Notes under the pieces: generated by a model
Database searches by the model: none
Told to the model about the DNA's origin: nothing
Seen by the model: only the letters and a program-made list of their open reading frames with translations
From: Harmothoe impar
Lineage: Eukaryota; Annelida; Polychaeta; Phyllodocida; Polynoidae
DNA length: 64,000 nt
NCBI GenBank assembly: GCA_947462335.1
Contig: OX381714.1
Location: 60,123,800 to 60,187,799 of the forward strand
Direction: 5' to 3'
Made by a program: the position numbers and the translations under genes
Part shown: positions 11,287 to 29,678 of the stretch, in pieces
How the letters are laid out: each line of letters starts with the position of its first letter
Numbering within the stretch: the first letter of the stretch is position 1

Positions 11287-11394
11287 AACATGAAACCCCA
11301 TCTGATGACAATATGAAACATGGACAAGAGTCCTGATTAAGACTTATACAACAGGCTTCTCCTCTTCCAAAGCTGAGACATTCCACTGTACCGT
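11287..11394 (+). other. spacer of the inverted repeat, host array sequence
   Basis: The 108-bp spacer (AACATGAAACCCCATCTGAT through CCACTGTACCG) matches the tandem-array unit at 8221-8360 and 8670-8790. In those units the same segment is followed directly by TTACAG and TATATGATGAGACACCC, which here resume only after the right arm. The arms therefore look inserted on either side of a host fragment. Confidence 0.8.
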
Positions 11395-13470
11395 TTTTTA
11401 TGCCGAAGTGGTGGCGTAGCCACCTGGTGGTGCCGCCAGGCACCACCAGAACGAGGTATATGATGTTTGCACTTTGCCAGAAGTCAGAACGGGCGCCGCC
11501 ATCTTGGATTGTGCGGCCATCTTGGATTAAGGTGTCACAACACAAATTTATGCTATGTGATAACAATAATATAAATCAACCTTTGATAGTTCCTGAGGTT
11601 GATTATAATCATACCTACCCCCCCTAATATGGACCCAAGGAATTCAATGGTTCTATCCGTTTGTTGCTAATACAGCTGGTTGCCTAGCAACCACTATTCT
11701 AATTGTTTATCTGCCTAGCAACACACATTTCCATGGTCCTGAAGTTGATTATAATCATACCTACCCCCCCTAATATGGACCCAAGGAATTCAATGGCTCT
11801 ATCCGTTTGTTGCTTATACAGCTGGTTGCCTAGCAACAGCTATTCTAATTGTTTATCTGCCTAGCAACACACATTTCCATAGTCCTGAAGTTGATTATAA
11901 TCATACCTACCCCCCCTAATATGGACCCAAGGAATTCAATGGTTCTATCTGTTTGTTGCTAATACAGCTGGTTGCCTAGCAACAGCTATTCTAATTGTTT
12001 ATCTGCCTAGCAACACACATTTCCATGGTCCTGAAGTTGATTATAATCATACATACCCCCCCTAATATAGACCCAAGGAATTCAATGGTTCTATCCGTTT
12101 GTTGCTAATACAGCTGGTTGCCTAGCAACGGCTATTCTAATTGTTTATCTGCCTAGCAACACACATTTCCATGGTCCTGAGGTTGATTATAATCATACCT
12201 ACCCCCCCTAATATGGACCCAAGGAATTCAATGGTTCTTTCTGTTTGTTGCTTATACAGCTGGTTGCCTAGCAACGGCTATTCTAATTGTTTATCTGCCT
12301 AGCAACACACATTTCCATGGTCCTAAGGTTGATTATAATCATACCTACCCCCCCTAATATGGACACAAGGAATTCAATGGTTCTATCCGTTTGTTGCTAA
12401 TACAGCTGGTTGCCTAGCAACGGCTATTCTAATTGTTTATCTGCCTAGCAACACACATTTCCATGGTCCTAAAGTTGATTATAATCACACCTACCCCCCC
12501 TAATATGGACCCAAGGAATTCAATGGTTCTATCTGTTTGTTGCTAATACAGCTGGTTGCCTAGCAACAGCTATTCTAATTGTTTATCTGCCTAGCAACAC
12601 ACATTTCCATGGTCCTAAGGTTGATTATAATCAAACCTATCCCCCTAATATGGACCCAAGGAATTAACACCTACCCCCCCTAATATGGACCCAAGGAATT
12701 CAATGGTTCTATCAGTGTGTTGCTAATACAGCTTCTTGCCTAGCAACGGCTATTCTAATTGTTTATCTGCCTAGCAACACACATTTCCATGGTCCTAAGG
12801 TTGATTATAATCATACCTACCCCCCCTAATATGGACCCAAGGAATTCAATGGTTCTATCCGTTTGTTGCTAATACAGCTGGTTGCCTAGCAACGGCTACT
12901 CTAATTGTTTATCTGCCTAGCAACACACATTTCCATGGTCCTGAAGTTGATTATAATCACACCTCTCCCCCCCTAATATGGACCCAAGGAATTCAATGGT
13001 TCTATCTGTTTGTTGCTAATACAGCTGGTTGCCTAGCAACAGCTATTCTAATTGTTTATCTGCCTAGCAACACACATTTCCATGGTCCTGAAGTTGATTA
13101 TAATCACACCTACCCCCCCTAATATGGACCCAAGGAATTCAATGGTTCTTTCTGTTCGTTGCTAATACAGCTGGTTGCCTAGCAACATCTATTTTAATTG
13201 TTTATCTGCCTAGCAACACACATTTTCTTACCCCCTAACATGGACCCAAGGAATATGGACTCATAGGAAATGCCATATTTGAAGTAATATCATCCTTCCC
13301 CCTTGATAACCCCTTCCCGGCCCTGCGTTTTTTGTGTCTTGAATGGGTTCCCTTCAAACATACCAACCATGTCGACATTATGTTTCTTCGAATGCAAGAA
13401 TTGCGGTTGTTGCCGCGTATAAAAATGCCTGAGGCATTTTTTTACGCGGAAACAACCGCAATTCTTGTTA
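11395..13470 (-). repeat. right arm of 4.26-kb inverted repeat
   Basis: Reverse complement of 9211-11286 with only scattered differences. Private marks are mirrored at the expected place: the truncated unit (10014 with 12667), the CTTGTGTCC variant (10310 with 12370) and the CAGGACTATGG variant (10797 with 11884). The arms are therefore copies of one another and not independent arrays. Its outer hairpin is 13395-13467. Confidence 0.93.
11586..13141 (-). repeat. satellite core of right arm, 146-bp unit
   Basis: Mirror image of 9541-11095, including the shortened unit near 12667. Confidence 0.9.
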
Positions 13471-14160
13471 CAGTTTATATGATGAGACACCCACTGGGGT
13501 TTGATGAAACCCAACAATCATACTCATTACACCAGGGGATAAAACTGCTGACTGTGTGAGACGTTAACTCTTTAAAGTCAGCATAATGCCGCATCATGGT
13601 CATTTGTCGTCATAATGCATCAATGCAGGGCTGGAGAGTAACTCATCAGTGCTGCATTGGTGCATCATCTCGACGCTTTGGAGTGAATCAACCTCCATTT
13701 TGGATCGGCATGATGCATGAATGCAGCACTGGCAGCGTTCACGCATCACAACGACAAAGGGCATAATGTGTTCAAAGGACTTTGCGCCCATTAAAAGGGT
13801 GAGCAGTAATGTTGATGAGAACCTAGCTACACGAGACTCTGCTTACAAAGTTGATACCCTTTATAATCCTTAAAGGATGGCATGATGCATTCATGTATCA
13901 TGCCATGGTCGTGATGATGCCTGAATGCAGCCAGAGCTGCATTCAGGCATCATGCCAACTCTGTAGGCTCGGTATAGTGCACCAATGCAGCACTGGCGAG
14001 TTCCTCACCGTGGCTGCATTGGTGCATCATGGCAACAAAAGTCATCTTTTGGCGACATCCGTACTTAAAGGGTTAAAGAGTGAATAGTAATGTGATGAGA
14101 ACTTAGCTACAAGAGTGTCCCCTTACCAAGCTGATACCCTTTATAATAACGAGAGAGGCC
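13471..14160 (+). repeat. continuation of composite tandem array with two MITE copies
   Basis: Resumes with ACAGTTTATATGATGAGACA, matching 8771-8800. MITE-derived palindromes lie at 13570-13800 and 13868-14070. The flanking phrase GATGAGAAC, CTAGCTACA and GATACCCTTTATAAT occurs twice (13815-13869 and 14095-14152), so this is again a tandem duplication. Confidence 0.7.
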
Positions 14161-14535
14161 TCAGACCCGTAATCCACCCACCCCAGTCATTACCATAGAG
14201 GCAGTAGCAGTGATACCCCTGTAGGCTCTGTGGTAATAGGGGTAGAAGGTTTAGATAGCTACAATGTGGTATTGATAATAACACTGTGGGGTATCTATCA
14301 GTGTGGTGTGATACAGTGTGGCTGATGGGCGGGCTGGGAGTGCTGTACTATAATTAGTTATACCTGATAGCCCTATGTCAGCATGTTTATTACAACAGGA
14401 CAGAGACCTAATATGGATTTTCTGTCGCCAAAAGTTTTCTAGCAGTTAAGGCCTAGTGAGTGTACCTACATGTATCATTTATTTCTCTCCCTCATTTTTC
14501 CTGTGTGTATCTCAGGACATTTATGGGCTGCTCAG
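14161..14535. other. non-coding, nothing recognised
   Basis: No gene or clear repeat before the 32-bp minisatellite begins. Confidence 0.5.
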
Positions 14536-15171
14536 GCTGTTGTTAAGGCACTGGGGGGCCCTTACAGGGTGTTGTTAAGGCACTAGGGGGCCCTAACAGG
14601 GTCTTGTTAAGGTACTAGGGGGCCCTTACAGGGTCTTGTTAAGGCACTAGGGGGCCCTAACAGGGTGTTGTTAAGGCACTAGGGGGCCCTTACAGTGTGT
14701 TGTTAAGGCACTAGGGGGCCCTTACAGGGTGTTGTTAAGGCACTAGGGGGGCCCTTACAGGGTGTTGTTAAGGCACTAGGGGGCCCTAACAGGGTCTTGT
14801 TAAGGTACTAGGGGGCCCTTACAGGGTGTTGTTAAGGCACTAGGGGGCCCTAACAGGGTCTTGTTAAGGCACTAGGGGGCCTAACAGGCTGTTGTTGAGG
14901 CACTAGGGGGCCCTTACAGTGTGTTGTTAAGGCACTAGGGGGCCCTTACATGGTGTTGTTGAGGCACTAGGGGGCCCTTACATGGTGTTGTTGAGGCACT
15001 AGGGGGCCCTTACATGGTGTTGTTGAGGCACTAGGGGGCCCTTACAGGGTGTTGTTGAGGCACTAGGGGGCCCTTACAGGGTGTTGTTAAGGCACTAGGG
15101 GGCCCTTACACGGTGTTGTTGAGGCACTAGGGGGCCCTTACAACTGTGTGAGCCCGTCAGGGTGTTGTTAA
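14536..15171 (+). repeat. minisatellite, 32-bp unit, first block
   Basis: About 20 copies of GTTGTTAAGGCACTAGGGGG followed by CCCTTACAGGGT, period 32 bp. Units carry ordered variants (TTAAGG/TTGAGG, GGGT/TGGT/GTGT), so higher-order copies can be traced. It is interrupted at 15172 by a transposon. Confidence 0.93.
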
Positions 15172-16545
15172 AAGAAAAGACAGGCATAGCCAAAACTCTA
15201 GTTCTATCGATTCATTGTATATCAATAAACTTCAAACTGAGCTTTATTCCTTAGTTCGCTTATTCATATTCTTACAAAACTATCTTAAAACTATAAAATT
15301 TAACCCAATCCATCCACCAAGGGGGCTGCCATTTTGTAACGAGATTTGGCGATAAATGACGTGAAAATGACGTAGGAAAGGACCAGCTGCGGTTGACCTA
15401 CTGAGGCAGGCTAGTCTAGCATGGCAGGTACTCTGCCCTCTAGGGCATACTCGCCAAATAGGGCCACATGCCGGGCTGTAAGTAAAAGACGGAACCTGAA
15501 GCTAGCAACTGGAATGAACCCAGATGTGGTCCTAAACAGCGAGTATAATATATAACACTGTGGGTAATTCATATAGGAAATAAAATTAATTCATATAGCT
15601 AGGGCATATAGGCTTGCGGCCCAACCTTGTATTATAGGGCTAAACCCAATAAATATGGGTTATTTATAGAAAACTAATAAAAAATATAGCAAATAAACCA
15701 AAATTATAGGTAGGGCGTACTGGCCATTTTGTATAGGCCTGAGGCGCTGGTTACCACAGCAACCCCCCATCTGCGGCCCTAGAACCCTGACAGTGTAAGC
15801 TTGCCCACTCTTTGAACAATTGTCGATTGTTAACAGGGAACTTAGTCTAGGGGTGTGCAAGGCATCGTTATTATTGTATAAACCTTTGGAGAGCAGCCCG
15901 GGAGAGCAGCCCATGGCTTTACTTTAGACTTGCATGTATAAAGGTACCCTCCTAGACTGATGGAGGAAGATCAACAGAATCTGATGATTGTACCTTTCCT
16001 TAGGCCTAATAAAAATATTTGAACTTGAACTTGAACGGCATGGCGCTATTTATGTGAACGAGACCAAAAGCCCGGCCCAAAAGCATGTTCATTTCAACCT
16101 GCTTTGGCTGATTTGCGACATCAACAAGTTGGTCACGCCTGAGCAGGGCCAGGCTGATTGCTTGACCCTGCAGTGCAGCGCCATCTGCTATGTATACGTT
16201 CCTCTTTTACCTTTCCCTGGGGATATTGAATAGGCAATTATGATGCATGGCTTGTAGGTGTACGCAACGTGTAACAGGTCTGCCGCCTGATGGACCATGT
16301 CTGAACTATTCACCTGCAGTATACAGGTGCTGCCTTCTGGTATTATCAGCTTTGAACAGCAGGACGTTCTCTTGTGACATCAGTGGCCCAGAAATGGCAG
16401 CCCCCACTCAGGAGCAACAGTTGCATGTTCTTTTCAATGTAACTGCTGTAATGTACAACTTTTGGATGAATGACACTCATAGATGTGTAAAAGGATAATA
16501 GCTGCTTTGAAACAAACTTGGTTGGAAATACGATACTCTTTTCTT
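15172..16545. mobile_element. non-autonomous TTAA-target element, 1,374 bp, piggyBac-like
   Basis: It is flanked by TTAA on both sides (15168-15171 and 16546-16549), created inside a GTTGTTAAGGCAC minisatellite unit that contains TTAA. Its ends are a 9-bp inverted repeat, AAGAAAAGA and TCTTTTCTT. No transposase reading frame is present. It carries near 15985-16035 a possible retroposon tail, AATAAAAATATTTGAAC followed by TTGAAC repeats. TTAA duplication is characteristic of piggyBac-type transposition; the short ends make the assignment provisional. Confidence 0.8.
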
Positions 16546-16549
16546 TTAA

Positions 16550-16904
16550 GGCACTAGGGGGCCCTAACAGGGTCTTGTTAAGGTACTAGGGGGCCCTTAC
16601 AGGGTCTTGTTAAGGCACTAGGGGGCCCTAACAGGGTGTTGTTAAGGCACTAGGGGGCCTAACAGGCTGTTGTTGAGGCACTAGGGGGCCCTTACAGTGT
16701 GTTGTTAAGGCACTAGGGGGCCCTTACATGGTGTTGTTGAGGCACTAGGGGGCCCTTACATGGTGTTGTTGAGGCACTAGGGGGCCCTTACAGGGTGTTG
16801 TTAAGGCACTAGGGGGCCCTTACATGGTGTTGTTGAGGCACTAGGGGGCCCTTACAACTGTGTGAGCCCGTCAGGGTGTTGTTAAGGCACTAGGGAGCCC
16901 TAAC
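16550..16904 (+). repeat. minisatellite, 32-bp unit, second block
   Basis: Same unit as the first block. The segment ACTGTGTGAGCCCGTCAGGG occurs both at about 15141 and at about 16857, showing that the array was duplicated in segments. Confidence 0.9.
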
Positions 16905-16909
16905 AGGGT

Positions 16910-17188
16910 CTAGGCTCGCACTAGGGTCCGTTTTTCTTTCGCCAGATTGGCGAAAAACGGCCGTTTTTCTTTCGCCAATTCCCAAGAGAATTCGCCAGAT
17001 ATTTGGAGATATATGTATAGTGAAGAATTGAGTCAAGATAGGTGGAGTTTATGTGGCCCTAAATATTGTAAATTTTCGCCAGCTATGAAATTTCTGACGA
17101 AAATTAGGTGCATTTTTCACATAAATTTTCGCCACATTCAATTTATTTTCGCCCCTGACGAATTGGCGAATGGCTAGCGCCAGCCTAG
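16910..17188. mobile_element. 279-bp MITE in the minisatellite, 5-bp target duplication
   Basis: AGGGT occurs on both sides (16905-16909 and 17189-17193). The ends are CTAGGCTCGCACTAG and CTAGCGCCAGCCTAG, inverted at 13 of 15 positions. The interior repeats TTTTCGCC/GGCGAAAA motifs (TTCGCCAGATTGGCGAA and others). Its plus-strand reading frame is incidental. Confidence 0.85.
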
Positions 17189-17193
17189 AGGGT

Positions 17194-17640
17194 GTTGTTA
17201 AGGCACTAGGGGGCCCTTACAGTGTGTTGTTAAGGCACTAGGGGGGCCTTACATGGTGTTGTTAGGGCACTAGGGGGCCCTTACAGGGTGTTGTTAAGGC
17301 ACTAGGGGCCCTTACAGAGTGTTGTTAAGGCACTAGGGGCCCTTACAGGGGGTTGTTAAGGCACTAGGGGGCCCTTACAGGGTGTTGTTAAGGTACTAGG
17401 GGGCCTTACAGGGTGTTGTTAAGGTACTAGGGGGCCTTACAGGATGTTGTTAAGGCACTAGGGGGCCCTTATAGGGTGTTGTTAAGGCACTAGGGGGCCC
17501 TTACAGGGTGTTGTTAAGGCACTAGGGGGCCTTACAGGGTGTTGTTAAGGTACTAGGGGGCCTTACAGTGTGTTGTTAAGGTACTAGGGGACCTTACCGC
17601 TATGTGATCTGCTCAGGGTGCTGCCCTTACAGGGTTAGTA
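17194..17640 (+). repeat. minisatellite, 32-bp unit, third block
   Basis: Continues the same unit with more length variants (GGGGCC, GGGGGCC), then decays after 17600. Confidence 0.9.
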
Positions 17641-18118
17641 AGGCTACAGGACCCTGCTGGTAAGTAGTAATGGTTGCTGAGTGAATAAACCCGGTACCCA
17701 GCACTGTCCCAATAGGATAAGTGCCACAGCTGATGAAATGAACCTCACCCAGCCGCCGTGCTATAGCATGTACATGGGCTCTGGGTGAACCCATATTGCC
17801 CGATGTTATCATACACTCTATAGATAAGTCATGAATTAATACGTTTACCGTACCATTGCGATAAACCGCTGGGGCGCTCTTTAACTCGACAGGGCGCTCA
17901 CCCTGTCGCTTATACAAACAGGTGCTTAGTCAAGGCCATGTTTTTAGTGCTTTAGAAACATTATCTATAATCCTCTATACTCATGGCGCTTACTCAATAC
18001 CGGCGCTCTTTCAAAACCAGGCGCTTTATCGCGACGGTTAACATTCTGCAAATATGGAAGGATTTCCTACTATTTTTGCTACTATTCAGATCCACTGAAA
18101 ACCTGTATTTAGTAGTAC
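17641..18118. other. non-coding; dispersed repeat shared with 42.1 kb
   Basis: From 17845 to 17935 the order TACCGTACC, GCGAT, GGGGCGCTCTT, CAGGGCGCT, GCTTATACAA, ACAGG and TCAAGG is shared with 42145-42235. No gene is seen. GTAC at 18115-18118 is the left target duplication of the retrotransposon. Confidence 0.6.
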
Positions 18119-18665
18119 TGTAACGGGTTGACTATAAAGTCTAACTGTTATTGTTGTATATCTATTGTATGTTGTATGATGTAAGACAACACGGTTCTAT
18201 TGTGTTTAATAACTGTTTTATTCATCTAACTAGTGTCGTCGGTTCGTTACATATACCGACTCCTCTAGTTCGGTTATCTATACGGTAGTGTACCGGTACC
18301 ACCTTCGGTTACCGTCGGTAGTTGTTACATAATCATTTTTACATAACTAAACCTAACAGGTGGCGCTGCTAGTACGGTCACGTGGCTACGCAGCGCTGTA
18401 TATAAGACGGCTGCTTCCCCATTGGAAGCCAGTCAGGTTTGGGACTGTCGTGACATGACCACCCTGTGCTCACGGGCTTAACTCTATGCTATAGGGTTGC
18501 CCACTGTATTATATATCTGTTCTGATCTCGTATATCCGCTGGTTATACTTGTACTATAATACCCAAGAGTTACCTTTACAATAAAGTCGCCGTATATTAA
18601 AGTCTAATTTACCTTGTCTGGTTTTTGTACTCAAGTGTTACATACGTAGTAAGAGACCAACTACA
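18119..18665 (+). repeat. 5' LTR, 547 bp
   Basis: Begins TGTAACGGGTTGAC and ends CAACTACA (TG...CA). U3 holds ACCTTCGGT and ACCGTCGGT at 18301-18319 and CAGGTGGCGCT at 18357-18367. A TATA box, TATATAAG, lies at 18399-18406, with an initiator-like TCAGGTT near 18433. A poly(A) signal AATAAA is at 18580-18585. It is identical by eye to the 3' LTR at an offset of 11,009. Confidence 0.96.
18399..18406 (+). promoter_or_regulatory. LTR TATA box
   Basis: TATATAAG in the LTR, about 30 bp upstream of TCAGGTT. It is the expected start of the genomic transcript. Confidence 0.75.
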
Positions 18666-18666
18666 T

Positions 18667-18680
18667 TGGTGCCGTGACCA
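18667..18680 (+). other. primer-binding site
   Basis: TGGTGCCGTGACCA starts one base after the LTR end. TGG matches the CCA end of a tRNA, as expected for minus-strand priming. I do not assign the tRNA species. Confidence 0.8.
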
Positions 18681-18726
18681 CTTGACGAACCGACCATTGA
18701 TAGGGTATTAAATAGACTTACAGTAT

Positions 18727-20880
18727 ATGGATTACCTATACGATTTTGTCAGCTCGTTCAGCGGCAGGACTAAAACCCCTGCTGAGGAACGTGAAGAAGC
18801 CGTACAGAATGTACGCTTCTTCACAGGCAAATCTAATAGGCGGGAGAGCCGGGCAGCCTTGGAGGTGCCCGGTGACGACCTCTCCCAAGAAGCAATAGGT
18901 GATCCTATTGTGGAAGCCTTTACCAAAGGAGAGGATGGGGAGCAATCTCCAATCCCGGGACCCTTTGATATAAGCTCCAGGAGATCGTTGGACTCCCTTT
19001 CCACGAATCTTTTCTGTCCTGAGGGTCAGAAAATACCGGGTAGAGAGCCTAAAACTCTCGGCCCAGCTGCCTTCGGTTCTACACCGACGGTAGCAGATCC
19101 TTCATTGGATCCAGACACGTCGGTTTTCACTGATGGTGCCACTCCTACACCGAACGGTATGGGGGGTGGCGGGCTGTCAAAGAAAACTAACGCGGCAACA
19201 GAAGCTCCTGGGAAGGGGTACCCGCCAGCAGTAGATGAGCCATCCAGTTTACCACTGGATGGGGACCTACTGGCTGCCATGGGGATCCCCACCAAGAAAA
19301 CTGAGTTGCATGAGCTCGCTGAAGCCCGGAGGGAACTTGCTTCCATCAATCAAACTAGGAAGTTATTCCTAAGGGAGGTTGATGAGAAGAAAAAGTTCCT
19401 ACTGGAACTCCAGAATGAGATGGCTTCCCACAAGGTGGAGGTTGACAAACTTTTGCACCAGAGGGTGTCCGGCGAATGTGAGGTTGCAAGCTTAACTTCC
19501 TTGGGAAAGGATTTGAGCACGCAGCTCCACTTAGCCAGACAGGACCTCGCAAGCTTAAGGCAAGTCAATCAGGACCTGAAGACGAAGTCGGAGAAAGTAC
19601 CACCACCTTCCACGGTGGTACCTCCAGTCATACCCATACCCAGTGTATACACGACAGTGACACCTTCAAGTGTCCCGCCGCTAGTACACACCACGGTAAC
19701 AGGTATGACACCTCAGATGGGGGCTAGCTATCTACAGACTCCGGTCTGTGGTGGCGCCTTTGGAGGCACGGCAACACCTCCAGGGTACACCCACCCATCT
19801 ACTGGTTCAACGATGTTGAACCAGCAGCAGACCATGGTCTCAGTTCCAGTACCGAAACCCAGAGCTAGACAAGGCTTAACGCCTGTCCAGCGGGCTAAGT
19901 ACGACCGGAACCCGGCTATTGAGAAGCTGGGGACAGACATCGTCCCGCGGGACATCGATGAACTGGATGAACGGTATGCTCCTTTCAACTTTGGGGACAT
20001 CAAACATCCTGATGCAGCCCGTCAAAAGGCCATCGATATTCCGCCTTTCACAGGGTCGCCACCCTGGAGAAAGTACAAAGTTCGGTTCAAGGCTATTGTG
20101 GAGAGCAATCGCTGGAACAATCAGCAAGCGCTGGTTGCTCTGAAGCAAGCACTCTGCAACGGGCCAGGTGAACCAGCCCTTTTGGCGTTCGAGAGAGTGA
20201 AGATCAAGACATTGAGCTCACTTGAAGAAACAGCTGAATGGGCGATTGGGAAGATTGGTGAGCATGACCCAAGGACTCAGCTGCTCAAACGTGTCCAACG
20301 CAAGGACGAGCATCTGAGATCCTACGGATTTGCTCTACAAGAACTGATATCCGAGTGTTATCAGGGATGTAGACCTGACACCCCCACTGTCATCCAGGAG
20401 TTGACCTCCAGGTTTGTCAATGGAGTCAGAGACACCAATCTCCAGGCATATCTGCGGGAGAAATGGCAGCCGGACTTATCTCTAGCTGACCTTTTTGACC
20501 ATGCAGATGTGTATGACACCAAACAGGCTGTTTTTCCTAGTGGGGGAGTGTCGGCAGCTCCATCTGTAGCCCCGAAAGGAGCTCAGGTGGTAGAGGCCGC
20601 CACAAAACCACCTAAGAAAAAACAGCCCGCCTCTGAGGAGGTGGCGGCAGTAATGCCTGACAGGGACATGGAGAAGATGATTGAGGGTTTGTTGCGGAAG
20701 CACTTGGAAAAGAGCTCTGCGTCCACTTCTGATTCTGGATCTGGAAAGAGAAGGAAAAAGAAGAAAAAGGACACGAAACCTCAGCCATGTAGACGCTGTC
20801 AGAAGATGGGTCATTGGGCTAGCGAATGCAAAGCCCCTGCACCCATCGCTGCTAAAACCGAAAAGGAGACGGAAAACTGA
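18727..20880 (+). CDS. gag: Gag polyprotein of the retrotransposon
   Basis: 717 residues; the structural protein that forms the intracellular particle and binds genomic RNA. Residues 190-290 are a strongly charged, leucine-rich helical region (probable coiled coil). Residues 290-380 are rich in Pro, Thr and Val. Residues about 435-595 look like a capsid-type Gag domain (aromatic- and basic-rich helices, such as WRKYKVRFKAIVE). A basic tract (KRRKKKKK, 674-681) precedes one CCHC zinc knuckle, C688-x2-C691-x4-H696-x4-C701. The ATG lies only 46 nt past the primer site and is the first in frame. The length is greater than typical Gypsy Gag because of the coiled-coil N-terminal part. The frame overlaps the upstream extension of pol by about 25 nt. 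Confidence 0.93.
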   Translation: MDYLYDFVSSFSGRTKTPAEEREEAVQNVRFFTGKSNRRESRAALEVPGDDLSQEAIGDPIVEAFTKGEDGEQSPIPGPFDISSRRSLDSLSTNLFCPEGQKIPGREPKTLGPAAFGSTPTVADPSLDPDTSVFTDGATPTPNGMGGGGLSKKTNAATEAPGKGYPPAVDEPSSLPLDGDLLAAMGIPTKKTELHELAEARRELASINQTRKLFLREVDEKKKFLLELQNEMASHKVEVDKLLHQRVSGECEVASLTSLGKDLSTQLHLARQDLASLRQVNQDLKTKSEKVPPPSTVVPPVIPIPSVYTTVTPSSVPPLVHTTVTGMTPQMGASYLQTPVCGGAFGGTATPPGYTHPSTGSTMLNQQQTMVSVPVPKPRARQGLTPVQRAKYDRNPAIEKLGTDIVPRDIDELDERYAPFNFGDIKHPDAARQKAIDIPPFTGSPPWRKYKVRFKAIVESNRWNNQQALVALKQALCNGPGEPALLAFERVKIKTLSSLEETAEWAIGKIGEHDPRTQLLKRVQRKDEHLRSYGFALQELISECYQGCRPDTPTVIQELTSRFVNGVRDTNLQAYLREKWQPDLSLADLFDHADVYDTKQAVFPSGGVSAAPSVAPKGAQVVEAATKPPKKKQPASEEVAAVMPDRDMEKMIEGLLRKHLEKSSASTSDSGSGKRRKKKKKDTKPQPCRRCQKMGHWASECKAPAPIAAKTEKETEN
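20856..20880 (+). promoter_or_regulatory. gag-pol overlap, candidate -1 frameshift window
   Basis: The pol frame is open from 20856, after a TAA at 20853, while gag stops at 20880. Pol lies in the -1 frame relative to gag. A-rich slip candidates are GAAAAG (20860-20865) and GGAAAAC (20871-20877), the latter just before the gag stop. Neither is a perfect X-XXY-YYZ heptamer, so the site is inferred. Reinitiation at the pol ATG (20964) is the alternative. Confidence 0.5.
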
Positions 20881-20963
20881 ATGGGGCCCATCCTCTTGGC
20901 AAGGATGGCGCCCCCACAGTTAGCCATGCCTGTAAGGGATTAGTAGACGGTGTTAACTCTTCC

Positions 20964-23900
20964 ATGAACCAAGGCCGCGCAGAGGCAGAAGGGTCTGTAC
21001 AACCTGTAAGCGTCTGGCAAGGCGGGGCTGGCAAGGACGAACGGAATCCGGAGGATTCTGTAGTCGCTGGCTTAGAGGAGTCTTGGTTAGAATCAATTGC
21101 CCAGAGCAGTGTGATTCAAGACTCCCCGAGCGACCCATGTTGGGATTATCTCCTGACAAAAGGGGTTGCTATGGATGGAGGGGGAAGCCCGATGCTGACC
21201 TCTGAGTGTGTCCCTTTACGGGGACAGCGTTGGTACCTGAGTCTGGTTATTTCCGGGACGCGTGGTGAATTTTTGGTCGACACGGGTGCATCTCACACCT
21301 TGGTCGATCGTAAATTCATGGCCCGTCTTTGCAACCAGCCCGAAGCTCCGCTACTAGGAGTAAAGGCTCGGACTGCTACGGGAGATAGTATGCAGACTTA
21401 TGGCAGAACTGTAAAACCTATGTTGGTTGATGGCAAGACATACTGGATATGTCCAACCATCACCGACATCACTGATGATGGCATACTGGGGATGGACTTT
21501 GCTGCTCTTTACGGGGTAACAATGAACACCGCAACGGGCCGACTTCAGATTAAACATCCTTATAAACAATCTGTACAGTGCGTTTTAAGGAATGGTTCTT
21601 CTGTGGCGTCAGTGGCACAAGACACAAAGTTGGCAGCAGGACATGTATCTGATGTCCTAGTCAGCTGCGTGGGAGTGCAGGCCAAACGGCCGGGAATGTT
21701 TGAACCAGAAGATCAAAAGCTCTCTGAGTTAGGTCTTGCTGGCTATCATACTTACCTGGCCAACGCTCGTTGGGGGGTGATACCGATTTGTAACTCGAGT
21801 AGTAGAGAAATCACTCTACGAAAGGGGACGCCTATTGGTAACACCACGCGAGCATATGGGGTAGACTCACTAACTACGGACTTTGTGGAAGTAGGTGTGG
21901 TGGCGGGAGACTCTTCCCACGAAGAGGCTCTAGCTAAATCCAACCTACCGAAACATTTAAGGTCCCTGTTGTGTGAGTCCCACCTCACAACCCTAGAGAG
22001 CGAAATGGTGGCAAATGAGCTGTCGGAGTTATCTGACGCCTTTGCGCAACCAGGAGATCCTCTAGGGCGTACCAATACGGTACAACACCGTGTTGACACT
22101 GGGGACGCGCTTCCCAGTAGAATCCCCTACCGTCGGTTACCCATGGCTAAAAAAAGTGCTATGGAGGCTGAGGTGGAAAAGATGTTGGATGAAGATGTGA
22201 TTCAACCTAGTGAGAGTCCATGGTCAAGTCCTGTGGTGATGGTCACCAAGAAGGATGGTTCCTGTCGATTTTGCATCGACTATAGGAAGTTGAACGGACT
22301 CACTAGGAAGAATGCATATCCTCTACCTCGGATAGATGAATGTGTGGAATCTCTGGGTGGGGCAAAATGGTTCTGTACACTAGATTTACAATCTGGTTAT
22401 TGGCAGATCGGCATGGACCCCCGGGACCGAGAAAAAACCGCATTTTCTACCCATATGGGACTATTTGAGTTCAACGTCATGCCATTCGGGCTATGCAATG
22501 CCCCGGCAACCTTCGAGGCAATGATGGAAACCATGTTACGGGGTTTACTTTGGAAAAAGTGCCTAGTATACTTGGACGACATCATCGTCTTCGGTGGTTC
22601 TGTGGAGGAAACTCTACAGAACCTCCAAGCTGTGCTGAAACGCATCTTATCATATGGTCTGAAATTGAAACCTTCAAAGTGCAAGCTTTTTAGGAAGTCA
22701 GTTGAATACCTAGGTAGAATTGTTTCTGAACATGGCATCATGGCTGATCCTCATAAGATCGAAGTGGTACAGAACTGGCCTCATCCGATGGACACGAAGG
22801 AGATACGCTCTTTCATCGGGTTTTGTTCATACTACAGAGATTTTATACCTGGATTCTCGAGAGTCGCAGCTCCCTTACAAGAGCTGATGATTGGAGAGAA
22901 GAAGGCTAAGGCTAAAATAGTCTGGTCTCCAGCCGCAGAACAGTCTTTCAGTGAGTTAAAGAGACTCTTCTTAGAAACACCTGTTTTGCACTACCCTGCA
23001 CCTGTTGGTAAGTTCATCTTGGACACTGATGCTTCTAATACAAGTATTGGTGCTGCCTTGTCGCAGATCCAGGATGGGCGAGAAGTGCCGCTGGCATTTT
23101 CGTCCAACAGTCTAAGCAAAACACAACGTAACTACTGCACAACCAAGCGTGAACTCTTGGCAGTGGTGGTTTACACAAAAAAGTACAGACATTTCCTATA
23201 TGGTGGGAATTATCTCGTACGGACGGATCATTCATCTCTGCAGTGGCTCCTTAACTTCAAGGACGCTGAGGGGATGATGGGTAGATGGTTGAACCACCTC
23301 TCTGAGTTTGGCATGACGAATGAGCATATCATACACAGGAGTGGAGTAGATCATGTGAATGCGGACAGCTTGTCCCGCTATCCTATCCGGAACTGTCACC
23401 GTGTAGACTGCCGAGACTGTGGGTCTCACAATGCAGTGATTGCGTCTGTGGGTGCGAAAGTTCCTAACTGGACGTTAAATCACTTGAAGGATGAGCAGCT
23501 TGCAGATCCGGCTATTTCGAGGGTGTACTCCTTGAAGTTGTTGGGCCTGTCCAAGCCTGTTCGCCCCGCACTTTCGCTGGAATGTAAAGAAGTTAGACAA
23601 CTGTTAGCTCAGTGGGATAATCTTTTTATACGGAACAGTGTATTGTGCCGCTGGAGAGTGCAACCTGGCAGGAAGAGAACAGCTCAGTCTGTAGTGCCTT
23701 TGTCACTCAGACTACAGTTGCTCAATTACTGTCATGGCCACAGAACTTCAGCACACTTTGGCAGACAACGAACTGAGGCAAAGATTAAGAGTAGATATTA
23801 CTGGCCTGGTATGACTTTGGACATACGGCGTTGGGTGAAGCAATGCCCCCAATGCTGTTTATCAAAGCCTGGACCTGGTATCGGTAAACTACCTCTAAGT

Positions 23901-24980
23901 CAAGAGCTATTCGGTGTTCGGTTTGCCCGGATCGCTGTTGATATCATTAGTGGTTTCAACACGACCCCCCGTGGGAATACCTGTATGATGGTGGTACAGG
24001 ACTACTATACCAAGTATGTCCAAGTATATCCGTTGGTAAATCATACGGCTGTTACCTGCGCAGAAGCACTTTTCGAGAATTGGATCCTCACGTGGGGAGG
24101 TCCTTTAATGCTTCACTCCGACCAGGGTCGTGAGTTTGAATCTCGACTGTGGGCAGAACTGTGTAGTAAAATACACATCTGCAAGACGCATACGAACCCC
24201 TACCGACCTCAATCGGATGGTATGGTGGAACGTTTTAATCGGACGTTGATCCAATGTCTCACGACAATGGTTAATGAGCACCGGGATGATTGGGATGAGC
24301 ACGCTCGCTATATCTCCCATGCTTACAATGCTACCGAACATGCGTCGACGGGCTGTACGCCTAATATGCTCGTAATGGGTGAAGACATAGTCATGCCTAG
24401 CGACATGGTCTATGGAGTGCAGGGACACCAGCTCGAGCAACCCTGCACAGTGATGTTTGTTGAGTCACTTCGACAATCATTACGCGAGTCCTATGGAGTA
24501 GTAAGGGACAACTTGGAAAAATCTGCTAGTTTGCAGAAGGTGGGCTATGACACGGGCCTTAAACTCCGCCAGTTCAAGGTGGGGGATAAGGTCGCGAGAT
24601 TTAGCACACCAAATTCCAAAGTCAAGACCCTGTACTCCTGGGATGGTCCGCATACGGTTACTATGGTGGTTAGTGAAACTACTGTAGTAATACGGTTGCA
24701 AAAAGGGACTCTCACTAAATCACATGTGGCTAGACTCCGACCTTGGTATGGAGTCCCATATATAGATGACGGTGAAGATTCCCTCGGTGCTGGTCGAGTA
24801 CCAGCACCAACCGACCCTGCGCTACCGAAGATACCGAAGGCAGGACCAACGGTCATACCGTCGGTACCGACGGTAGCGCGCCGAAGGGGTCGTCCTAGGA
24901 AATTACCGATTGAACCACAGTCGTGTGTTACCAAGCCCAAGCGCGGTAGGCCTCGTAAAAAAAGGGTCAGCTGTGCGTAA
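20964..24980 (+). CDS. pol: Pol polyprotein: protease, reverse transcriptase, RNase H, integrase
   Basis: 1,338 residues from the first ATG; the true translated frame may begin at 20856 through frameshifting. The aspartic protease motif is DTGAS (D106). RT has catalytic D474 in FCTLDLQSGYW and YLDD at 536-539. RNase H has DTDAS at 687-691. The integrase zinc domain has H926-x4-H931 followed by CPQC. The catalytic triad is D993, D1053 and E1089, with 35 residues between the last two. An SH3-like C-terminal piece includes WDGPHTV. The tail has two AT-hook cores, GRPRK, at 1309-1313 and 1328-1332. All catalytic residues are present. The stop falls just after a 7-A run, and a +1 frame continues to 25104 with a typical pol-tail motif, so the end may be frameshifted. 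Confidence 0.96.
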   Translation: MNQGRAEAEGSVQPVSVWQGGAGKDERNPEDSVVAGLEESWLESIAQSSVIQDSPSDPCWDYLLTKGVAMDGGGSPMLTSECVPLRGQRWYLSLVISGTRGEFLVDTGASHTLVDRKFMARLCNQPEAPLLGVKARTATGDSMQTYGRTVKPMLVDGKTYWICPTITDITDDGILGMDFAALYGVTMNTATGRLQIKHPYKQSVQCVLRNGSSVASVAQDTKLAAGHVSDVLVSCVGVQAKRPGMFEPEDQKLSELGLAGYHTYLANARWGVIPICNSSSREITLRKGTPIGNTTRAYGVDSLTTDFVEVGVVAGDSSHEEALAKSNLPKHLRSLLCESHLTTLESEMVANELSELSDAFAQPGDPLGRTNTVQHRVDTGDALPSRIPYRRLPMAKKSAMEAEVEKMLDEDVIQPSESPWSSPVVMVTKKDGSCRFCIDYRKLNGLTRKNAYPLPRIDECVESLGGAKWFCTLDLQSGYWQIGMDPRDREKTAFSTHMGLFEFNVMPFGLCNAPATFEAMMETMLRGLLWKKCLVYLDDIIVFGGSVEETLQNLQAVLKRILSYGLKLKPSKCKLFRKSVEYLGRIVSEHGIMADPHKIEVVQNWPHPMDTKEIRSFIGFCSYYRDFIPGFSRVAAPLQELMIGEKKAKAKIVWSPAAEQSFSELKRLFLETPVLHYPAPVGKFILDTDASNTSIGAALSQIQDGREVPLAFSSNSLSKTQRNYCTTKRELLAVVVYTKKYRHFLYGGNYLVRTDHSSLQWLLNFKDAEGMMGRWLNHLSEFGMTNEHIIHRSGVDHVNADSLSRYPIRNCHRVDCRDCGSHNAVIASVGAKVPNWTLNHLKDEQLADPAISRVYSLKLLGLSKPVRPALSLECKEVRQLLAQWDNLFIRNSVLCRWRVQPGRKRTAQSVVPLSLRLQLLNYCHGHRTSAHFGRQRTEAKIKSRYYWPGMTLDIRRWVKQCPQCCLSKPGPGIGKLPLSQELFGVRFARIAVDIISGFNTTPRGNTCMMVVQDYYTKYVQVYPLVNHTAVTCAEALFENWILTWGGPLMLHSDQGREFESRLWAELCSKIHICKTHTNPYRPQSDGMVERFNRTLIQCLTTMVNEHRDDWDEHARYISHAYNATEHASTGCTPNMLVMGEDIVMPSDMVYGVQGHQLEQPCTVMFVESLRQSLRESYGVVRDNLEKSASLQKVGYDTGLKLRQFKVGDKVARFSTPNSKVKTLYSWDGPHTVTMVVSETTVVIRLQKGTLTKSHVARLRPWYGVPYIDDGEDSLGAGRVPAPTDPALPKIPKAGPTVIPSVPTVARRRGRPRKLPIEPQSCVTKPKRGRPRKKRVSCA
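24857..24874. promoter_or_regulatory. 18-bp perfect palindrome, double ACCGWCGGT site
   Basis: ACCGTCGGTACCGACGGT is two abutting 9-bp motifs in opposite polarity, inside the pol C-terminal coding sequence. See the finding on the element-wide motif. Confidence 0.7.
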
Positions 24981-25104
24981 AGGACTAACCGTAGGCACCG
25001 GTAAACAAAGCAAGGTGATACCTCCGGTGTCACCGTTGCTGGACATACCGGTACAAGGTCTACGGAGGAGCACACGTGTCAGAGAGCGAGATAAAATTGT
25101 GTAA
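24957..25104 (+). pseudogene. possible frameshifted end of pol
   Basis: A run of seven A (24957-24963) is followed in pol frame by an early stop at 24978-24980. In the +1 frame the sequence stays open to a TAA at 25102-25104 and encodes LRRSTRVRERD. An RRSTRVR-type tail is commonly the last part of Gypsy polyproteins. One extra A in the run would explain the break. It could instead be an assembly error or programmed slippage. Confidence 0.5.
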
Positions 25105-25558
25105 ACATTTTTTTCTTACCTTGTTGACGACATTTAGCTGCTGGCTTGATTAAATTCCCCTGGACAGTTCCGTACTGGGCCGGTGGTCATTGGCCCGGTA
25201 CACGATCACCAAAACACAACGAGAAGAGACGGGTTATCCGGTGTGGTTATCCGTTGGAGGTAGAAAAGCACGTGTTCAGGGCGGGTGGCTGGCTTTGCCG
25301 ATTAGTTCTAAGTATGGGACTAGTTTTGACCACATATTGCTTAGCAACACGCTGCTGTGTATATCCTCTAATGCCGGTATATCATTCCCGGGTTATCCGG
25401 TGGCTCCGCCACGAAAATTGTAAACAACAGTGAGAGTTCCCACCGTCGGATATGCCAGGCGTGGGAAGGGCGCTGCCCGCGTCACCTGATCGATTTCTCC
25501 CGCCAAATGAGCCGTGGGAAATTGGGTCACCTCGGCGCGCCTTCGGGGCGCGACCTCT
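25105..25558. other. pol-ORF3 spacer
   Basis: Non-coding, apart from a 77-codon frame (25190-25423) that I cannot recognise. It contains ACCGTCGGA at 25442-25450, one base from the element-wide motif. The second half becomes GC-rich, with GGCGCGCC at about 25534. Confidence 0.55.
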
Positions 25559-25647
25559 GATTGGCTGAGAAGCCGGTCAAGGGGCGGGGTCACGGGGGAC
25601 GGGTGGGGTATATAAGCCCCACAGGCAGCCAGGCTTCTTCAGATCAA
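25559..25647 (+). promoter_or_regulatory. predicted internal polymerase II promoter for ORF3
   Basis: In order: inverted CCAAT box (ATTGG, 25560-25564), GC box (GGGGCGGGG, 25581-25589), TATA box (TATATAAG, 25609-25616) and initiator-like TTCAGATC with the A at 25641, 32 bp from the TATA T. The spacings match a standard core promoter. The TATA octamer is the same as in the LTR. Expected product: a short transcript carrying only ORF3, ending at the 3' LTR poly(A) site. Confidence 0.65.
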
Positions 25648-25677
25648 CACGTTTGCCCGTAGGGTAGCGTGTTGATC
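25642..25677 (+). other. ORF3 leader hairpin
   Basis: GATCAACACG (25642-25651) pairs perfectly with CGTGTTGATC (25668-25677) across a 16-nt loop. It would start at about +2 of the predicted ORF3 transcript. It is followed by TGGTGCC, the same 7-mer that starts the primer-binding site. Confidence 0.65.
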
Positions 25678-25785
25678 AGTGGTGCCTAGGTCTGCCCGGC
25701 AGTACCTACACTATTGTTTACCAGCTGTGCTACTAAATGCTCGGGTGAGTGAACCGTGAGGTTCACCTACGCCTGAGCTAACAGT

Positions 25786-28197
25786 ATGGCAGCCCGTGTA
25801 GATGGCAGATGCACGGCCCCGGAGAAGGCTGAGGCCTCCGATGGGGATGACCGAGTTCTCGAGTCTGACACGGAAATGGACACTACCGGTGCTCCAACCG
25901 TCGGTCAAGGCTCGGCTTCGGTACCAACTGAACCTAACCCTGAGGGGTCGGGTGATGTTGTTCCGAAGACAGAACCTGGTCTGGGTGGTAGCAATACCAA
26001 CCAGGAGGAGAACCCTGCAGGGGGATCTTCTCCGAAACCCGCCGGTGTATTGGCACAAGAACCGACGGTCCCTGATGGTGATTCATCAGACGGGTCCACG
26101 GTCCGTGCTAAGACCAAACGGAAGCGGAAGCATAAGAGGAGGATTGCATCTTCCCCTGAGACTCCTGCTACCGAAGAGGTCGCACCGACGGAGGCAGATA
26201 GACTCAAAGCTGTTGCCGACAAACTGTCCAAGGCGGAAGCCGAGGGATGGTCTGTGGCAGAGAGCAGAGCCAATCGACGCCTCCGCGCCAAGGCAGCGCA
26301 TGTCCGTCTAAACCTGTGTCTCCGTGATGATGACCGGGAGAACCTGAGCCTCACTGATTTAATTCAGGAGAATGGCAAAATGGCTCTTCCTGCACCTCAC
26401 ACGACCGATGGTTCAGACGACGAAGACTGGTTGACAGGTGATTCCCATCCCATTGACTGGTACCTCGTGTACCTCAGGGCAGTGTTAGACGGGAAGAAAC
26501 CTAACATCCATAGGTCATGCCGCCCCAAGCTGAAATATGCTTGGAAGAACTACGTGCCAGGGGATCCCTGCCCGTACGTTCGCTGTCAGCGCCTGAAAGG
26601 GACTGCGACAGCAGCAAAACGGTGGCCAAACCTTTTCAAGTTTGCCCGTCATTTGGTAGAGAAGCACATGAATGTGCGTCCCTACTTGTACTGTGTGAGT
26701 GGAAGTACGAGTACTTCCTGCCCTGAGTACAGTGACGGGGAACTATTCCGTAGCCAACGGAGATCTGGTTTGGTTAGGCATCTTTGCGACAATAAGGGCG
26801 TGCACAAGCGCACTATTAGTCGTGGAGTTGAGGCTGCACTGAAGGTTTGGGGGAGTCACAAACGTGTAGGAAATCTACAGTTTAAGTGGCGAACCAACAA
26901 ACTTAAACAGTGGAACTACCTCACGGAGGCTGACTGGGAGAGGTTGTGTAAGGGCGCCAAGTGCGAACAAACCGACCTGGGACCAGCTACAGAAGCTCCG
27001 ATGCCCACTGTAAAGAAGGATACCCCTCCTAAGAAGAAAAATCTAAAAAGGGGCCGCCAGTCATCCAAAGATGATACCAAAGGTGGACGTGACCGTTCCC
27101 GCAGTGAACCTGCGAAGAAACGTGTCGCCACCGCCACGGTAACATCTGAGGTCGACCGTAGCCAAACCGTCGGTACCGTCACGGTATCTTCGGTTGCATT
27201 GCCCCCGGTTGCTGATCAACTGCCCAGGCAGGAGAGACAGAAACTGGGTAATGCACTGGCTATTGTTCAGAACTCTTTGGGTGACGAGCAGGCGGAACAA
27301 GTCGCTGCTGACTATGTCAAGCAGTACAAGTGGAGTCAGAAGCAAAAGAAAGCTTCAGCCCCACAGGAGAGTGTCTCACCTGTCAGTGACGCTGAACAGG
27401 TAGAGGTACAACAGCCGGATGGGGCGTCAGCCCAGCCGACTGCTCCACCCCAGCACGGAGCAACCTCTGACCCCGCAAGGGATGACGAGGTGACTCCAGA
27501 CCCTGAGCACAGGGCTGTTGACGAAGGGCTAGCAGGGTTACCTGTGTTGCCTGGAGACGGTCCTGCCTTTGACACTGGATTCTCTGACACTCTAGTCCCC
27601 GGATTTGAGTGCTACAGAGCTAAGATGGCTGAAAACGCAAGTAAGCTACTCCAGTTTCAGGTTTCCTTCTTGGAGAAGTCGTACTTTGAGCAGTACAAGT
27701 TGCTCAGAGAACAGGCTATCCGAGAAGGGAAAGCTTGGGTTGCTGAACGCACCAGAGTCCTTGCCGAGCGTGAGGCTAGTCTGGAGCAAGATCATGCCTT
27801 CTGGAGGGCTACGATCGACCAGCTCGAATCAAGGTTGACAACTTGTGACGCCAAGTTCTTCCGGCAGTTCGGGTTTAAGCTGACAGAGTGGGAGAGATCT
27901 GGTTTTCCAGATCTCCAGTCCAGGTTGGGGCTTGCCGCAAGGCCTGCTCCTCCTGTGACCCCGGTACTGTCAGTACACCCACCTAGGTATGAGATGCCAT
28001 TTTCTTTCATGGCACAATCTACCCGGGTGGTCAGTGGCGGGGAGCCTACTGCGGCGCCGAGTACCCTCTCGGTAGCCCCAGGTGGAGCCCTTCCTCTCCA
28101 GGTGGAGGCTGCTGTGGTTTACACCACGGAGGCCCCTCCTGGAGGAAGTCCTGATGGGGAAGGAAAGCCATCCGGCGGTGTCCCTATGGACACCTAA
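25786..28197 (+). CDS. ORF3, unrecognised protein with zinc-finger-like motifs, env position
   Basis: 803 residues; I do not recognise the family. There is no signal peptide or membrane segment, so it is not envelope-like. Residues 1-100 are acidic and Pro/Ser-rich. A basic NLS-type stretch, KRKRKHKRR, is at 111-119. Two degenerate C2H2-like candidates follow: C262-x4-C267-x21-H289-x4-H294, and C303-x8-C312-x19-H332-x7-H340. A second Lys/Arg-rich block lies at about 409-446. Residues about 610-710 are charged and helical, a possible coiled coil, and the tail is Pro/Gly-rich. It is intact, sense-oriented and has its own promoter signals. I infer a nuclear or nucleic-acid-binding role. Alternatives are a captured host gene or a second Gag-like protein. 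A splice-donor-like GGGTGAGT sits at 25743-25750 in the leader. Confidence 0.85.
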   Translation: MAARVDGRCTAPEKAEASDGDDRVLESDTEMDTTGAPTVGQGSASVPTEPNPEGSGDVVPKTEPGLGGSNTNQEENPAGGSSPKPAGVLAQEPTVPDGDSSDGSTVRAKTKRKRKHKRRIASSPETPATEEVAPTEADRLKAVADKLSKAEAEGWSVAESRANRRLRAKAAHVRLNLCLRDDDRENLSLTDLIQENGKMALPAPHTTDGSDDEDWLTGDSHPIDWYLVYLRAVLDGKKPNIHRSCRPKLKYAWKNYVPGDPCPYVRCQRLKGTATAAKRWPNLFKFARHLVEKHMNVRPYLYCVSGSTSTSCPEYSDGELFRSQRRSGLVRHLCDNKGVHKRTISRGVEAALKVWGSHKRVGNLQFKWRTNKLKQWNYLTEADWERLCKGAKCEQTDLGPATEAPMPTVKKDTPPKKKNLKRGRQSSKDDTKGGRDRSRSEPAKKRVATATVTSEVDRSQTVGTVTVSSVALPPVADQLPRQERQKLGNALAIVQNSLGDEQAEQVAADYVKQYKWSQKQKKASAPQESVSPVSDAEQVEVQQPDGASAQPTAPPQHGATSDPARDDEVTPDPEHRAVDEGLAGLPVLPGDGPAFDTGFSDTLVPGFECYRAKMAENASKLLQFQVSFLEKSYFEQYKLLREQAIREGKAWVAERTRVLAEREASLEQDHAFWRATIDQLESRLTTCDAKFFRQFGFKLTEWERSGFPDLQSRLGLAARPAPPVTPVLSVHPPRYEMPFSFMAQSTRVVSGGEPTAAPSTLSVAPGGALPLQVEAAVVYTTEAPPGGSPDGEGKPSGGVPMDT

Positions 28198-29115
28198 GGT
28201 TGGTCCCCCGTCAGGCCCTCTGGGGTGCACTGTTCCGCCCCTCGGAGGTAAAACTAAACCATCGACGCAGCTACACGCCCCTGGACAACCAAAAGCAGAC
28301 CGACGGTGCTGTCGTGACTTAACTGAGTCTCTACTGCCACCACACTGGAAGCAGCCTGATGTCTTCAACCGTGGTTTACTACTAAGCCACAACCGTCGGT
28401 GCTCTACTACTGTCCAGGGCTCCTGATCCTGTGGTCACATTATACTATGGTGACCTATGAACTATTATATGGATCATCCTCCTGTGATAATTATTTATAG
28501 GGAGGCACGGACCTACCTTTTTATATTTATATTTCACAAGAGATGGAAGTACTATACCGGTACTGGACTCTATCCATCTCTACCACCATAAACTGCTAGG
28601 TACTGGAGTACCGCCTCTAATAAGGATGACGATCTATCCCACCTTATTTAGGATACGCTAATATGGATTTTTATATATAAACTTTTCTACGCCAAAGGAA
28701 GTGGGAACTGCTATAGTTCCAATTATAAAACTTTTCTTCGCCAAAGGAAGTGAGAGCTATTATAGTTCTATTATTTATATATAAGGACACTAACTCCACA
28801 CGGATTCGCACCATTGCTGAATGAAGTAGGTGATGTGTTGAGTTTCCAAGGTGGTTATTGGTGCCTTCACTATTAACTGATACTAGTCTAGGACTATCAG
28901 TTGGACAGTTTTTATATCATGTGCCTACGGGACTATGGTTTTACAAAGACTATATTGTTGATATAAACTGTTATGTGCATGTTAACTTGTATGTTCATGT
29001 ATGTATGCCTGTTGTTACTATGAGTAGAAATGTTACTTGTTGATAAATAGATATACGTGGTATATAATGTATCCAAGAGGTATTATTATTATAAAACCAA
29101 CCCTTCCTACATTCT
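28198..29115 (+). other. 3' UTR of the retrotransposon
   Basis: Non-coding and AT-rich. It holds two exact ACCGWCGGT sites, at 28299-28307 and 28392-28400. A tandem duplication with period about 49 bp (28679-28775) repeats ACTTTTCT, CGCCAAAGGAAGTG and TATAGTTC. Confidence 0.7.
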
Positions 29116-29127
29116 AAAGGGGGGTAG
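29116..29127 (+). other. polypurine tract
   Basis: AAAGGGGGGTAG directly precedes the 3' LTR. It is the expected primer for plus-strand DNA synthesis. Confidence 0.85.
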
Positions 29128-29674
29128 TGTAACGGGTTGACTATAAAGTCTAACTGTTATTGTTGTATATCTATTGTATGTTGTATGATGTAAGACAACA
29201 CGGTTCTATTGTGTTTAATAACTGTTTTATTCATCTAACTAGTGTCGTCGGTTCGTTACATATACCGACTCCTCTAGTTCGGTTATCTATACGGTAGTGT
29301 ACCGGTACCACCTTCGGTTACCGTCGGTAGTTGTTACATAATCATTTTTACATAACTAAACCTAACAGGTGGCGCTGCTAGTACGGTCACGTGGCTACGC
29401 AGCGCTGTATATAAGACGGCTGCTTCCCCATTGGAAGCCAGTCAGGTTTGGGACTGTCGTGACATGACCACCCTGTGCTCACGGGCTTAACTCTATGCTA
29501 TAGGGTTGCCCACTGTATTATATATCTGTTCTGATCTCGTATATCCGCTGGTTATACTTGTACTATAATACCCAAGAGTTACCTTTACAATAAAGTCGCC
29601 GTATATTAAAGTCTAATTTACCTTGTCTGGTTTTTGTACTCAAGTGTTACATACGTAGTAAGAGACCAACTACA
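29128..29674 (+). repeat. 3' LTR, 547 bp
   Basis: Same sequence as 18119-18665 by direct reading. AATAAA lies at 29589-29594. It is followed by GTAC (29675-29678), the right target duplication. Confidence 0.96.
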
Positions 29675-29678
29675 GTAC

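Follow-up and report, generated by a model that had tools for sequence, protein, structure and literature searches.

A putative element-wide binding-site array and a candidate reader protein in a Ty3/gypsy-type retrotransposon of Harmothoe impar

Described systems and the element in the window

The su(Hw) insulator of Drosophila gypsy is a single cluster of sites 3′ of the 5′ LTR that is read by a host zinc-finger protein. In Arabidopsis, VANDAL21 copies carry YAGTATTAY arrays and VANC anti-silencing proteins act on them, the transposon's own protein recognizing a 9-base motif that is enriched in its copies; in the accessible text of the source, VANC specificity arises from motif density, and the targets of VANC6 carry different motifs (PMC5735166). 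Foamy viruses have an LTR promoter and an internal promoter, and in the part of the source available their DNA-binding product Tas/Bel1 acts on both (PMC4929722). Among Ty3/gypsy elements, Ogre and Burro have extra ORFs beyond gag and pol, those of Ogre being of unknown function, and the portion of the source at hand mentions no protein with paired fingers that goes together with an internal promoter and a corresponding array of motifs (PMC6431247). Troyka, according to the accessible part of its description, has a 3-bp duplication and CG..CG termini (PMC12440569). In a search, mostly outside subscription journals, for LTR retrotransposons that carry an additional finger ORF, no title or abstract opening describes the element studied here, and literature text of the same partial kind contained the motif strings only as CCGACGG or CCGTCGG, in fungal and locust work.

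This element lies in a window of 64,000 nucleotides (positions 60,123,800 to 60,187,799 of contig OX381714.1, assembly GCA_947462335.1), to which all coordinates refer unless a contig is named. It is a Ty3/gypsy-type LTR retrotransposon of 11,556 bp (18119–29674), with its LTRs, genes and putative control regions on the forward strand. The 5′ LTR (547 bp, 18119–18665) is identical throughout to the 3′ LTR (547 bp, 29128–29674), which was delimited by this comparison; the LTRs end in TGTAAC..ACTACA (TG..CA), and matching copies of the target-site duplication GTAC lie on the two flanks (18115–18118 and 29675–29678). The insertion in the window is therefore recent. A putative primer-binding site (18666–18679) is assigned from its position directly 3′ of the 5′ LTR, and the polypurine tract AAAGGGGGGTAG (29116–29127) adjoins the start of the 3′ LTR. 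The only ORFs longer than 200 aa are gag (717 aa, 18727–20880), which has a CCHC knuckle (Pfam zf-CCHC), pol (1338 aa, 20964–24980), which encodes protease, reverse transcriptase, RNase H and integrase in the Pfam order Asp_protease_2, RVT_1, RT_RNaseH, Integrase_H2C2, rve, and a third frame, ORF3 (803 aa, 25786–28197). The TG..CA LTRs, the short target duplication, the order of pol domains and the CCHC knuckle of gag are traits of Metaviridae/Ty3-gypsy.

The window element resembles Ogre and Burro in having coding capacity past the usual gag and pol. It is not a Troyka element, given its TG..CA ends and 4-bp GTAC duplication, nor, as an LTR retrotransposon, a VANDAL element. No env, which assignment to Spumavirus would call for, was found among the ORFs longer than 200 aa, where ORF3 has no Pfam match at E 1.

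An Rfam scan of the whole window at gathering scores gave no match. The window also holds two runs of ∼146-bp tandem repeats (9417–13385), many of whose units are 94–97% identical to the reference copy, and long blocks of 32-bp (and 31-bp) tandem repeats (14416–17593) immediately 5′ of the element. Short dispersed repeats that contain TGCATCATG-type stretches and are possibly MITE-like occur at 53162–53627, 14012–14094 and 43477–43559.

The ACCGWCGGT sites and their conservation

The palindrome ACCGWCGGT was found at all 11 places in the element at which the first-pass annotation had reported it, spread from U3 to the 3′ UTR. Sites of the form ACCGTCGGT lie in U3 of the 5′ LTR (18311–18319), in pol (22129–22137) and at its 3′ end (24857–24865), in ORF3 (25897–25905 and 27166–27174), in the 3′ UTR (28392–28400) and in U3 of the 3′ LTR (29320–29328), and those of the form ACCGACGGT in gag (19083–19091), at the 3′ end of pol adjoining the site at 24857 (24866–24874), in ORF3 (26061–26069) and in the 3′ UTR (28299–28307). 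The two U3 copies are one and the same LTR site, which leaves ten independent sites, with A as centre base on the coding strand in 4 and T in 6. One LTR and the internal part together contain five sites with one mismatch, among them the four near matches named earlier. A single copy had also been noted elsewhere in the window; it is present, at 52046, and fits the background.

The strong enrichment claimed for the element holds: dinucleotide shuffles of one LTR plus the internal part have a mean of 0.057 sites and a maximum of 2 in 1000, and for the whole window, with its 12 sites, none of 100 shuffles reached that number (mean 0.15, largest 1). When the 512 palindromes of the form NNNN-W/S-N′N′N′N′ were counted in the element, ACCGWCGGT occurred 10 times and the runner-up twice. 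Codon-preserving shuffles (2000 for each gene) reached the three sites of pol in no case (mean 0.05) and the three of ORF3 once (mean 0.18), whereas the one site of gag was reached in 180 (mean 0.09) and is not significant by itself. The peptides over the sites differ and are read in differing frames (TPTV in gag; YRRL, IPSV and VPTV in pol; TVG, EPTV and TVG in ORF3). The earlier statement that a protein repeat does not explain the sites is thus upheld for pol and ORF3, where frames and shuffles rule out both a protein repeat and codon bias; the single gag site may have a coding explanation.

Among the 30 best ORF3 matches, one of which (L016) is the window copy itself, 239 of 240 sites are kept. 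These copies are too alike for this conservation to have any power as evidence, with 1 of 123 polymorphic columns falling within the 72 site columns where 1.7 would be expected in proportion. A diverged set was assembled with a distant homologue as query, comprising 20 copies, of 57 matches listed, with 85–95% DNA identity, and exact retention was scored in gap-free cases at the eight sites inside a 5-kb part. In these copies, diverged by 5–15%, 111 of 157 sites (0.71) are retained, while the rate is 0.35 among 170 two-CpG 9-mers and 0.495 when all 9-mers are taken; the retention of the motif is equalled by random sets of eight controls with P 0.00045 (∼0.0005), and by class-matched sets with P 0.001. 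The motif is accordingly better kept than comparison sequence in related copies.

From 5′ to 3′ the sites are exact in 17/19, 10/19, 14/20, 6/20, 18/20, 16/20, 20/20 and 10/19 copies, the least conserved being the ORF3 site at 26061 and the fully kept one the 3′ UTR site at 28392. The gain in conservation sits in the coding sites (65/98 kept, versus 0.30 for 121 two-CpG controls) and the noncoding sites of the 3′ UTR (36/40, versus 0.38 for 42 controls); it does not extend to the LTR site (10/19, versus 0.62 for 13 LTR control 9-mers). When the LTRs were realigned, the U3 site was exact in 10 of 20 copies, four had a one-base change and six had no alignable U3, so that it is exact in 10 of the 14 with alignable U3. 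In the group formed by L037, L042 and L044 the U3 site is absent, and an extra site, absent from the window copy, lies near 25990. Short pieces of six copies show an exact pol site in five, with no alignment in the sixth; their gag site is exact in one, changed in two and not alignable in three. Isolated half-sites are kept no better than other CpG 4-mers in the diverged copies (ACCG 0.644, mid-rank), and are thus not supported as conserved units.

The enrichment, the codon shuffles and the retention in diverged copies support an element-wide array in which the ACCGWCGGT sites are probably selected, putative binding sites. Their reverse-complement symmetry, with both A and T as centre base, is consistent with sites in double-stranded DNA.

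In the genome as scanned (1.51 Gb in 736 contigs), ACCGWCGGT occurs at 10,240 sites and the control TCCGWCGGA, which matches it in core and base composition and likewise contains both CpGs, at 2,179; the reversed string is found at 29,475 places, but contains no CpG and is hence not a fair control. Of 50 distinct sites listed from about the first 6.7 Mb of contig C1, 40 fall in three clusters spaced like the element. The other ten correspond to 1.5 per Mb in this ∼6.7 Mb, which is close to the genome-wide control rate of 1.44 per Mb; the surroundings of the one lone site compared with the element (L001) gave no match. The excess of ∼8,000 sites fits ∼700–800 copies with ten sites each. With two mismatches allowed, the double site ACCGTCGGTACCGACGGT has 771 genomic matches and its reversed control 78, so that the copies with this stretch number roughly 700. 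At least 56 scored genomic ORF3 matches are 98–100% identical and free of stops, and with the identical LTRs this makes the family look recently active. At G000:C1:292549–315084 the spacing of sites suggests two copies head to tail with apparently one common LTR, and one further site lies 552 bp past the last LTR site. Database relatives of ORF3, P0006 and P0005, used as queries in the same genome, mostly gave loci that look like the family of the window element, with common coordinates and frame lengths; some of the P0005 loci may belong to other families.

ORF3 and the two putative promoters

ORF3 has no PDB match at E 10 in addition to the lack of a Pfam match, and among viral and prokaryote contigs no homologous loci were confirmed. 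The database relatives P0001–P0008 share the core SDDEDW..HPIDWY..C-x4-C..H-x4-H..C..C..H..H, which is lost partway in P0004 and P0007 and lacks the HPIDWY part in P0008, which a profile comparison shows to be distantly related (E 3.7e-14). We read this core as two C2H2-type fingers, C262-x4-C267-x21-H289-x4-H294 (26569–26667) and C303-x8-C312-x19-H332-x7-H340 (26692–26805). With neither a Pfam nor a PDB match, it is from this Cys/His pattern that DNA binding by ORF3 is proposed. Except for one H289N, none of the eight Cys/His residues is changed in any of the 20 diverged copies.

Calculated against the window copy from 19 of the 20 diverged copies (L045 was dropped), dN/dS of ORF3 is 0.22 overall, 0.14 in the finger core (aa 196–400) and 0.16 at aa 621–725. 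ORF3 is under purifying selection and is a maintained gene of the element. The stretch of about aa 621–725 (27646–27960) is a probable coiled coil, with a heptad pattern near aa 650–694 by a simple home-made score. Two basic stretches are of the kind seen in nuclear proteins, and ORF3 overall looks like a nuclear nucleic-acid-binding protein.

The element has a putative TATA box, TATATAAG, in the LTR (18399–18406, assigned from its sequence) and the same word again 5′ of ORF3 (25609–25616), where it is exact in 18 of the 20 diverged copies, changed in one and in a gap in one. The spacer between pol and ORF3 (24981–25608), a putative internal promoter region rich in half-sites, is conserved in diverged copies: identity there and in the 3′ UTR is 0.90–0.93, compared with 0.81 at third positions of ORF3, 0.86 at those of the pol end and 0.84 for the LTR part. 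Counted region by region, half-sites, defined as ACCG or CGGT outside full sites, outnumber those of shuffles in U3 as far as the LTR TATA box (9, p 0.001) and in the spacer as far as the internal box at 25609 (14 against a shuffle mean of 7.4, p 0.009). In ORF3 the surplus is marginal (24, p 0.049), and gag (14, p 0.18), pol (26, p 0.45) and the 3′ UTR (4, p 0.63) show none; no half-site lies in 18401–18665 and one in the leader 25609–25785. The conserved second TATATAAG, the well-kept spacer and the half-sites upstream of both TATA boxes suggest that the element has two promoters, one in the LTR and one internal.

Candidate readers of the array and a second family

The first-pass annotation had proposed an element-wide binding-site array with an unknown binder. 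The array stands in the light of its enrichment, the codon shuffles and its conservation; as for the binder, the element itself offers a candidate in ORF3. The binder need not be a host protein, because the element encodes a conserved protein with paired C2H2-type patterns. In the reading we favour, to which we give about even chances, the palindromes are selected double-stranded-DNA sites read by ORF3, a self-recognizing regulator of the element. ORF3 would be expressed from an internal promoter of its own and would dimerize through its coiled coil, so that paired zinc fingers contact the two ACCG halves of the sites, which selection would retain. Bound to the clustered half-sites of U3 and of the pol–ORF3 spacer, it would turn on both promoters. 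The full sites, which are dispersed, would mark the entire body of each copy, for example against silencing, and their density would let ORF3 distinguish its own copies from the remaining genome. The element may in this way recognize and switch on its own copies. Against this reading count the LTR site, which is not better kept than LTR controls, the weak retention of some other sites (6/20 at 26061, and one exact of three alignable among six copies for gag), the ordinary conservation of isolated half-sites, the lack of a half-site surplus in gag, pol and the 3′ UTR, and the missing Pfam and PDB matches of ORF3.

Such a regulator, known here from sequence, would be like Tas of foamy viruses in its logic and like VANC in its layout. 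With foamy viruses the element would share an internal promoter before a downstream regulatory gene and the targeting of both promoters; those are retroviruses with env, whereas the window element has an ORF3 of paired C2H2-type patterns and an element-wide array. The likeness to VANDAL21 is a 9-base motif dense in its own copies, of which the density is what is observed here. The VANDALs are Mutator-like DNA transposons for which binding has been shown, while for this LTR retrotransposon we infer it; in the accessible text their motif is non-palindromic and occurs chiefly within noncoding tandem repeats, with a single orientation, whereas the present motif is palindromic, dispersed and also found in coding DNA (PMC5735166). 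As in Drosophila gypsy, a Ty3/gypsy element would have repeated sites for a zinc-finger protein, but gypsy has a single cluster and a host reader, whereas here the sites are dispersed and the candidate reader is encoded by the element. The analogy to the gypsy insulator cluster drawn earlier thus fits less well, given that the sites run from U3 into the 3′ UTR and that surplus half-sites precede two TATA boxes. Should ORF3 be the reader of the array, the element would be an animal-type LTR retrotransposon with its own sequence-specific regulator and sites over its whole body, a layout otherwise known from plant DNA transposons.

The main rival, which we regard as possible although not favoured, is that the sites are bound by a sequence-specific factor of the host, be it an activator or an insulator protein, and that the element accumulated them for expression or insulation. 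Their conservation points to a benefit for the element and is silent on the identity of the binder, and half-sites 5′ of TATA boxes would suit any transcription factor. However, ten full sites, some of them in coding DNA, exceed the needs of a promoter, no host network of the full 9-mer is visible at the above rate of lone sites in the listed part of C1, and ACCGWCGGT is absent from the one copy read of a second family, family B.

A role of the motif at the RNA level, as a signal for packaging or dimerization read on the genomic transcript by Gag or through RNA–RNA pairing, is unlikely. An RNA signal needs neither reverse-complement symmetry nor mixed A/T centres (4 and 6), and a 9-mer whose 4-nt arms enclose a single nucleotide is unlikely to form a hairpin; half-sites are in excess 5′ of the TATA boxes and absent from 18401–18665, the presumed 5′ end of the transcript. 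In favour of an RNA role, the sites are distributed over the transcript, from gag as far as the 3′ LTR. Silencing can be directed at transposons through dense recognition motifs, for example by KRAB zinc fingers, and by this precedent the sites might be targets of a host silencing protein from which the copies have not yet escaped; selection would then purge them, yet the coding and 3′ UTR sites out-retain matched sequence in copies diverged by 5–15%, and we consider this reading improbable. Chance, or hitchhiking of the word in a young family, is compatible with the uninformative conservation among the 30 near-identical copies (1/123 polymorphic columns, 1.7 expected) but is strongly disfavoured by the shuffle maximum of 2 in 1000, the differing contexts and frames of the sites and their retention in diverged copies.

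Family B, a sister family with a diverged ORF3, is a second retrotransposon family (L067–L069, three pieces at G000:C2:37864250–37871400) with an ORF3-like protein of ∼1,100 aa that has the common finger core. P0008 has 42 scored matches in the same genome with 49–52% identity and open frames of 1,022–1,154 aa. The one family B copy, read in three pieces, has a pol end, a spacer, TATATAAG (147 bases 5′ of the start chosen for the ORF), then the ORF itself and finally a stretch 3′ of it, the last with a G-rich tract ending in GTAG and then TGTA, the putative start of an LTR. From this similar order, the pol–spacer–TATATAAG–ORF3 layout probably predates the split of the two families. ACCGWCGGT does not occur in the 6,202 bases of this copy, where 5.6 sites would be expected at the density of the window element (Poisson P 0.004); judged from this one copy, there is a lead that the motif is family-specific.

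A wider reading, which we put forward as speculative and less likely than not, is that self-recognition is lineage-wide, each family having an internally promoted, paired-C2H2 coiled-coil ORF3 and its own co-diverging motif array, with copies activated or unsilenced family by family, as with VANC in plants. If ORF3 is the reader, one could test in what way a mobile element marks copies as its own and whether families avoid cross-talk through a co-diverging protein and motif; the two families within one genome are a ready comparison for protein–motif co-divergence. The words would perhaps be ACCGWCGGT in the family of the window element and a CCGGAA-type word in family B, which may have a motif of its own. 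In the first family B piece (L067, 4 kb), CCGGAA/TTCCGG occurs 14 times against a shuffle mean of 2.7 and a maximum of 10 in 1000, an enrichment in one piece with p 0.008 when corrected for the choice of 6-mer; in the ORF part it occurs 11 times against a codon-shuffle mean of 3.0 and a maximum of 8 in 400. The next pieces contain three in 1.5 kb and one in 0.7 kb, as raw counts, and the CCGGAA words of family B lie mostly outside palindromes.
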